DNA from: Candidatus Promineifilum breve
GTDB taxonomy: Bacteria; Chloroflexota; Anaerolineae; Promineifilales; Promineifilaceae
NCBI RefSeq assembly: GCF_900066015.1
Contig: NZ_LN890655.1
Location: forward strand, 3,264,726 to 3,328,725
DNA: 64,000 nt
Direction of reading: 5' to 3'
Shown: in pieces, positions 23,857 to 46,979 of the stretch
How the letters are laid out: the number at the start of each line of letters is the position of its first letter
Numbering within the stretch: the first letter of the stretch is position 1
Position numbers and translations under genes: made by a program
Notes under the pieces: generated by a model
Told to the model about the DNA's origin: nothing
The model's database searches: none
Seen by the model: the letters and a program-made list of their open reading frames with translations, nothing else

Positions 23857-24867
23857 TTATTCCAGAGAATCCCTTCCGATGATCTGTCGCACCCGATATA
23901 CCCTCAGGTCCTGGGTCTCATAATAGGTGCGCACGGTCAGTTCGGCGATAAGCCCCATCACGATGAACTGTACGCCGAGGATAACCAGCAAGACCGCCAG
24001 CAGCAGCAGAGGCCGGTCGCCGATGGTCATGGCGTTGAAACCGGCCATGCCGCCGGTGATGCCCGCCCACAGCTTCAGCCCGGTCAGATAGCCGCCGACG
24101 AGCGCGCCGAGAGCGAACAGGATGATCCCCCAGCGGCCGAATAGTTGCATTGGCCGGTCGCCGTATTTGCGCAGGAAGTGGATGGTGAACAGGTCGAGGA
24201 TGACGCGGAAGGTGCGCGACAGGCCGTATTTCGACGCCCCGGCCACCCGCGCCCGGTGGTTGACCGGCACCTCCGACATGCTGAAGCCGCCGAAGCTGAC
24301 CAGTTCGGGGATGAAGCGGTGCAGTTCGCCGTAGAGATGCAGATCGCGGACGACCTCGGCGCGGAAGGCGCGCAAGGAGCAGCCCCGGTCGCGCAGCCGC
24401 ACACCGCTGGTCTCGGCGATGAGCCAGTTGGCGACCCGCGACGGGAAGCGGCGCACGAGGTTGTCCTGCCGGTTCTCGCGCCAGCCGTTGACCACGTCGT
24501 ACCCCTTGTCCAGTTCGGCCAGCAGCCGGGGGATGTCGGCCGGGTCGTTCTGGCGGTCGGCGTCGAGGGTGACGATGACCCGGCCGCGGGCATGGTCGAA
24601 GCCGGCGGCGAAGGCTGCCGTCTGGCCGTAGTTGCGGCGGAAGCGGATGGCGACGATGTGGTCATCTTCGGCGGCCAGCTCTTGCAGGCAGGCGAAGCTA
24701 CCGTCCTTGCTGCCGTCGTCGATGAACAGGGCTTCATAATCGAGGCCCGTACTGCCCAGCGCGGCGCGAATCTCCTCGGCCAGCGGGCGCAGGTTGTCTT
24801 CCTCGTTGTAGACGGGGATGACGAGGCTCAGATCAATTGATTCAGGATGGGGTAAGGCTGTGGTCAA
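23857..24867 (-). CDS. Family 2 glycosyltransferase with two C-terminal membrane helices (DPM1/ArnC/GtrB-like)
   Basis: A 336-residue GT2 enzyme with VIPVYNEE (16-23), DDGS (50-53) and DADRQNDP (102-109), then two membrane segments (about 247-275 and 286-312). This is the layout of polyisoprenyl-phosphate glycosyltransferases, which load a sugar onto undecaprenyl or dolichyl phosphate at the membrane. NYGQTAAFAAGFDHA and RDRGCSLRAF are typical. The gene follows an unknown gene by 6 nt. With the flippase-like protein and two phosphodiesterase-like enzymes nearby, it may belong to an envelope glycan pathway. Confidence 0.85.
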   Translation of the reverse strand: MTTALPHPESIDLSLVIPVYNEEDNLRPLAEEIRAALGSTGLDYEALFIDDGSKDGSFACLQELAAEDDHIVAIRFRRNYGQTAAFAAGFDHARGRVIVTLDADRQNDPADIPRLLAELDKGYDVVNGWRENRQDNLVRRFPSRVANWLIAETSGVRLRDRGCSLRAFRAEVVRDLHLYGELHRFIPELVSFGGFSMSEVPVNHRARVAGASKYGLSRTFRVILDLFTIHFLRKYGDRPMQLFGRWGIILFALGALVGGYLTGLKLWAGITGGMAGFNAMTIGDRPLLLLAVLLVILGVQFIVMGLIAELTVRTYYETQDLRVYRVRQIIGRDSLE

Positions 24868-46694: not shown

Positions 46695-46728
46695 GTTGTC
46701 TCTCCTTGTCATCGATCCGGTCTAAAAT

Positions 46729-46762
46729 GAAAAACGACCGCGGGTGGGTTCCCGGCGGCCGT
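46729..46762 (-). terminator. Second terminator-like hairpin in the leuS leader
   Basis: On the minus strand a GC-rich stem (ACGGCCGCCGGG pairing with CCCGCGGTCGT, one bulge) is followed by TTTTT. It ends about 35 nt before the leuS start, so it would stop transcription before the gene unless it is prevented. Confidence 0.6.
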
Positions 46763-46786
46763 CCGTTAGATGGATCAATGGGGGAC

Positions 46787-46813
46787 AAAAAAGCCGCAGG
46801 GAGCGCCTGCGGC
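46787..46813 (-). terminator. Terminator hairpin in the leuS leader
   Basis: On the minus strand GCCGCAGG, a short loop and CCTGCGGC are followed by TTTTTT (A-run at 46787-46792 on plus). A textbook intrinsic terminator, lying between the leader ORF and leuS. Confidence 0.8.
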
Positions 46814-46860
46814 CGGTGCGTTGTCTGGTCAGTTGGTCAATCGATCACGCTTGCGGGCAG

Positions 46861-46904
46861 GCACGGGTTATTCGGCGCGTAACGCGCCAAGTAATAAGCC
46901 GTGC
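46861..46904 (-). promoter_or_regulatory. Hairpin formed by the leucine-codon region of the leader ORF
   Basis: The leader ORF RNA can fold into a stacked hairpin: GCACGG (plus 46861-46866) with CCGTGC (46899-46904), TTATT with AATAA, and GGCGCG (46874-46879) with CGCGCC (46883-46888). The consecutive Leu codons lie in its arm, so a ribosome stalled there would open it. This is the usual geometry of an attenuator's first stem. Confidence 0.6.
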
Positions 46905-46933
46905 AGTCGAGCGAAGTTGCGTGATGGGTTCAT
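46868..46933 (-). CDS. Leucine-rich leader peptide of leuS (21 codons)
   Basis: ATG at 46931-46933 opens a 21-codon frame that contains ARLHGLLLGAL and ends in TAA at 46868-46870. Five of 21 codons are leucine, three of them the rare TTA in otherwise very GC-rich DNA, with a TTA-TTA-CTT run. The frame lies in the leuS leader ahead of two terminator-like hairpins. Function inferred: its translation rate senses charged tRNA-Leu. No strong SD; the 5' leader would be only about 10-15 nt long. Confidence 0.7.
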   Translation of the reverse strand: MNPSRNFARLHGLLLGALRAE

Positions 46934-46950
46934 GTCGTTCACTTGAAGAT

Positions 46951-46979
46951 AGGGTAGCATAGGCAGAGGCAGAAGTCAA
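46951..46979 (-). promoter_or_regulatory. Candidate promoter of the leuS leader
   Basis: On the minus strand TTGACT (46974-46979) and TACCCT (46951-46956) are spaced by 17 nt. Transcription would start about 10-15 nt before the leader ATG. The 130 bp further upstream to the Imm26 gene hold nothing else that I can identify. Confidence 0.5.

Follow-up and report, generated by a model that had tools for sequence, protein, structure and literature searches.

The window, the whole stretch of 64,000 nucleotides analysed here from Candidatus Promineifilum breve (contig NZ_LN890655.1), carries on its minus strand a second leucine--tRNA ligase gene, leuS2, preceded by a promoter, a short leucine-rich open reading frame (ORF), an intrinsic terminator and a second T-tailed hairpin (Table 1). 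The product is a full bacterial LeuRS, and its start was placed at ATG 46694, behind the ribosome-binding site AAGGAG (46707-46702); the in-frame ATG at 46712 was rejected as a start. LeuRS2 proteins, in the window and in its relatives, have S-V-G-H or SMGH in place of the expected class I signature HxGH. The gene upstream of the leader lies in divergent orientation.

Table 1. Positions (window numbering) of the features in and upstream of leuS2.
Feature	Position	Strand	Evidence or remark
-35 element TTGACT, leader promoter	46974..46979	-	TTGAC[A/G/T], N17-18, TGn, TAnnnT in nearly all 23 leaders
Extended -10 element TGC-TACCCT	46951..46959	-	-10 hexamer itself 46956-46951
Leader peptide ORF, MNPSRNFARLHGLLLGALRAE*	46868..46933	-	conserved in relatives
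Control codons TTA-TTA-CTT (Leu run)	46889..46897	-	Leu kept through synonymous changes TTA/TTG/CTC within the genus
Hairpin 1:2 over Leu codons and ORF end	about 46861..46904	-	MFE fold
Strand 2, GUGCCUGC, predicted antiterminator 5' half	46857..46864	-	complementarity and folds
Strand 3, GCAGGCGC, predicted antiterminator 3' half and terminator 5' arm	46803..46810	-	complementarity and folds
Intrinsic terminator, 9-bp stem, 5-nt loop, T-run	46787..46814	-	compensatory changes in 6/9 pairs
Second T-tailed hairpin, putative element	46729..46762	-	-20.5 kcal/mol
leuS2, leucine--tRNA ligase, 861 aa	44109..46694	-	TIGR00396, 955.9 bits; editing and anticodon-binding domains; KMSKS

The leader ORF runs from ATG 46933 to TAA 46868 (21 codons) and encodes MNPSRNFARLHGLLLGALRAE, with five leucine codons that read, in order, CTG, TTA, TTA, CTT and TTA. 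Three of the five are thus TTA, which accounts for 31 of the 1,549 leucine codons (2%) in 28 long ORFs of the window, so that an earlier sequence-only reading, which had picked out this ORF for its TTA-TTA-CTT run and its rare TTA codons, was correct on each count. An in-frame ATG at 46960 was ruled out as the leader start because it falls inside the promoter, which makes ATG 46933 the likely start. The promoter motif lies directly upstream in nearly all of the 23 leaders compared, with a mean score of 10.6 (5.1 in shuffles). From its spacing, transcription is predicted to begin near 46944, only about 10 bases ahead of the leader ATG; the distance from the -10 element to the ATG is 7-17 nt in several leaders, which would make them nearly leaderless. 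Transcription starting downstream of the hairpins had been named in the sequence-only reading as evidence against its view; the conserved promoter upstream of the leader points the other way.

The minimum free energy (MFE) fold of positions 46695-46979 includes both the hairpin over the leader ORF and the terminator (z = -4.9; none of 200 shuffles was as stable), in agreement with the hairpin over the Leu codons and the terminator ahead of leuS that had been proposed. A consensus scan placed the terminator stem at 46814-46792, with the T-run reaching 46787, and double compensatory changes, which had been suggested as a check on the hairpins, were found in the terminator. The second T-tailed hairpin fared less evenly: it is followed by TTTTT and does fold at the energy given in Table 1, which 2 of 500 shuffles matched, but the consensus terminator scan did not call it, and by eye it is present in only some relatives (L043, L049 and L236, being absent in L039, L051 and L056).

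Conservation was assessed with the LeuS protein as query against the genome (G000) and its relatives, from which the upstream regions of 91 leuS genes, the window's included, were collected. A leucine-containing leader ORF with a terminator was present at all 22 same-family leuS orthologs with usable upstream DNA: 17 passed a strict detector (three or more Leu within 4 codons, in an ORF that ends 10-60 nt before a terminator), four with weaker Leu runs were recognised by eye, and one, in which a methyltransferase gene sits between leader and leuS, was reached through a covariance model. Across the class, 27 of the 91 regions were detector-positive for Leu, 10 of these in other families of the class Anaerolineae, so that the leader ORF and its Leu codons are kept, as the sequence-only reading had asked, within the genus and the family and, beyond them, elsewhere in the class. 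On the reverse complement of the leuS upstream regions and in five shuffles the detector gave no positives. As its criteria were fixed after the first loci had been seen, the guards are the later loci, where 13 of the 34 regions not looked at until the criteria had been set were positive, and the amino-acid control, in which any other amino acid gave 0-2 positives each over the 91 regions. The 36 regions L059-L094, mostly of the other (T-box) leuS type, were all negative, and the 80 nearest leuS genes, mostly from other phyla, yielded one detector hit, L096, a Chloroflexi record matching relative G020.

The covariance model (R1), run against the genome and 39 relatives, had a single match in G000, the window leader; its strongest matches elsewhere were leuS2 leaders, together with L236, which precedes a methyltransferase-leuS2 pair, and L237, where leuS2 has been lost. 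At L237 (G016:C5 about 23891-24035) the leader MMMIWNGRIALLLLDNPISCRVLPV and the terminator persist without leuS2, and a short scar reads LYARFWTKVMA. A leader-like ORF with a terminator also lies ahead of an ABC-F family gene (L241, G017:C485:2164-2309). At L044, L046, L047, L048, L054 and L055 an extra short Leu-codon ORF (for example, NLLLLSRPAAA) stands between terminator and leuS and overlaps a strong hairpin without a T-run, possibly as a second layer of control.

The sequence near the end of the leader ORF, GUGCCUGC, is complementary to GCAGGCGC in the 5' arm of the terminator. In relatives the strands change in sequence while the pairing persists (in L049, UUGGGCUGG with CCAGCCC; in L052, CGUCUGGGAG with CUUCCCAGACG); in L051 strand 2 carries a mismatch. 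Duplexes of strands 2 and 3 from the same leader had a mean energy of -17.6 kcal/mol, compared with -15.3 kcal/mol when strands were swapped between genera (3 of 10,000 derangements were as good), a result that speaks for the set and not for each leader, since a GCCUG/CAGGC core is common to much of the family and single swaps therefore often pair. When folded in silico with a ribosome held on the Leu codons, 22 of 23 leaders formed 7 or more antiterminator pairs before strand 4, which completes the terminator, was present; with the ribosome placed on the stop codon all 23 formed the terminator, as did 22 of 23 as free RNA. With strand 4 complete, most relatives favour the terminator even while the ribosome is stalled, so that the antiterminator has to form first for the model to work; folding order matters in textbook attenuators as well. 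The gap between leader stop codon and terminator is 53 nt in the window and 18-39 nt in relatives, a consequence of the earlier stop codon of the window ORF, which would leave strand 2 only partially blocked by a ribosome at the stop codon (5 residual pairs).

Compared across relatives, the leader ORF, its Leu run, the promoter, the terminator and the complementarity of strands 2 and 3 make it very probable that leuS2 is governed by a classical ribosome-mediated transcription attenuator. The region offers a promoter upstream of the leader ORF, a short translatable ORF with a codon run matching the amino acid of the controlled gene, an intrinsic terminator between that ORF and leuS and, in folding calculations, an antiterminator that excludes the terminator according to the position of the ribosome. 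Translation of the leader, stalling, the response to leucine and the start site are the parts of the model that we infer. Under this model, a ribosome would start on the leader peptide almost as soon as transcription begins near 46944. With ample charged tRNA-Leu it would reach the stop codon and cover strand 2, the terminator would form, and most transcripts would end near 46787; with charged tRNA-Leu scarce it would stall at TTA-TTA-CTT, strand 2 would pair with the 5' arm of the terminator, and transcription would read through into leuS2. If the leader were not translated, hairpin 1:2 would leave the terminator free to form. The proposal that leuS is controlled by ribosome stalling at Leu codons, made from the window alone, is thereby supported by conservation, by the compensatory changes in the terminator, by the complementarity of strands 2 and 3 and by the predicted promoter.

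An improbable alternative is that the leader acts through translation or Rho, stalling serving to expose or hide signals of leuS with the intrinsic terminator not the target; the extra Leu ORF and T-run-less hairpin before leuS at L044, L046, L047, L048 and L054 would suit such a scheme, but in the compared leaders the terminator is U-tailed, shows compensatory changes and is matched by an antiterminator. We consider it more improbable still that the nascent peptide itself arrests the ribosome, GLLLG sensing leucine or a drug independently of uncharged tRNA: GLLLG is indeed conserved in the genus, but the leader peptides beyond it are alike mainly in their Leu codons, which indicates that codon identity and not peptide sequence has been kept, and the constraint near the ORF end tracks RNA pairing. 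Any sequence contains many short ORFs, but a chance ORF beside an unrelated terminator of an upstream unit is highly unlikely given the conservation, the amino-acid specificity, the control counts and the divergent upstream gene. The chance that the leader is a T-box or other known riboswitch is close to nil, as T-boxes are common in this genome but the T-box model (RF00230) matches only elsewhere in it, and neither that model, the Rfam amino-acid leader families nor any other Rfam family matched the leuS2 leader at gathering score, with nothing relevant at E up to 10.

The other leuS gene of G000, at C1:3782357, does have a T-box (L004), and further T-boxes precede serS, alaX-like, valS, thrS, asd and trpB-like genes and another synthetase gene (target names assigned by reading translated sequences), which makes apt the earlier remark that Gram-positive synthetase genes usually use T-boxes. 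The T-box leader of the other leuS (L087, G000:C1:3781500-3782500) contains a complete tRNA-Ala(GGC) gene between specifier part and antiterminator, with a tRNA-Ala(CGC) gene directly upstream, and this arrangement is conserved in the genus and in several other genera (also L078-L085, L062, L066 and L071). A leader of the same kind as that of leuS2, MKPYIQNDLVLALIGLVLIINKGAHAVG, precedes the ilvB-leuA operon (L222, G000:C1 about 269719-269588, minus strand), with a conserved Ile/Leu/Val peptide, an antiterminator (CUGUUGGG/CCCAACAG) and a terminator. As comparable leaders were found at 13 of 18 ilvB loci in relatives, ribosome-mediated attenuation is probably in general use in the lineage alongside T-boxes.

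Classical leuS attenuators have been predicted in Streptomyces coelicolor and S. avermitilis (Seliverstov 2005, PMC1262725), where no Firmicutes synthetase gene is placed under classical attenuation, and RNA-seq of S. lividans revealed a leaderless leuL2, MRAVRLLLSEPR, with a terminator before leuS (PMC8079986). Like the leuS2 leader, these consist of a short Leu-run peptide, an antiterminator and a U-tailed terminator before leuS, and the leaderless transcription in S. lividans is approached by several Anaerolineae leaders. The present case differs in phylum, in that the S. lividans peptide has no by-eye resemblance beyond the Leu run, and in that the gene under attenuator control is a second leuS, the other copy in the same genome having a T-box. 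Stalling at codons of its own amino acid likewise controls a synthetase gene in the pheST attenuator of gamma-proteobacteria (cited in PMC1262725), for Phe rather than Leu and in a different phylum, whereas the ilv/ivb-type leaders (ilvB of Actinobacteria, PMC1262725), represented in G000 before ilvB-leuA, follow the same principle with a mixed Ile/Leu/Val run and a biosynthetic target. The Actinobacterial LEU element is a conserved pseudoknot upstream of leuA (PMC1262725). T-boxes (RF00230), reported from the Chloroflexi genus Dehalococcoides (PMC2494555), do the same job of sensing amino-acid shortage for synthetase genes, but bind tRNA directly.

With leuS attenuators already reported in Streptomyces, the leuS2 leader represents a known mechanism in a new phylum, and seems to be the first such case described from Chloroflexota; the open-licence literature searched contained no report of leader-peptide attenuation in that phylum, which is weak evidence. 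The unusual part of the case, as read from sequence, is the pairing of leucine sensors on two leuS genes. Leucine shortage may be sensed in one cell by two unrelated RNA devices, leuS1 having a T-box with a tRNA-Ala gene inside and leuS2 an attenuator that works by codon stalling, and we suggest tentatively, at somewhat less than even confidence, that leuS2 could encode a second synthetase made only under certain conditions and induced at a threshold of its own, such as when LeuS1 falls short or is blocked by an inhibitor. The predicted switch, conserved across the class Anaerolineae and found alongside a sister gene with another type of leucine sensor, would extend the ribosome-mediated attenuation of synthetase genes to Chloroflexota, and paralogous genes of a single genome would allow T-box control and codon stalling to be compared directly in a natural setting.
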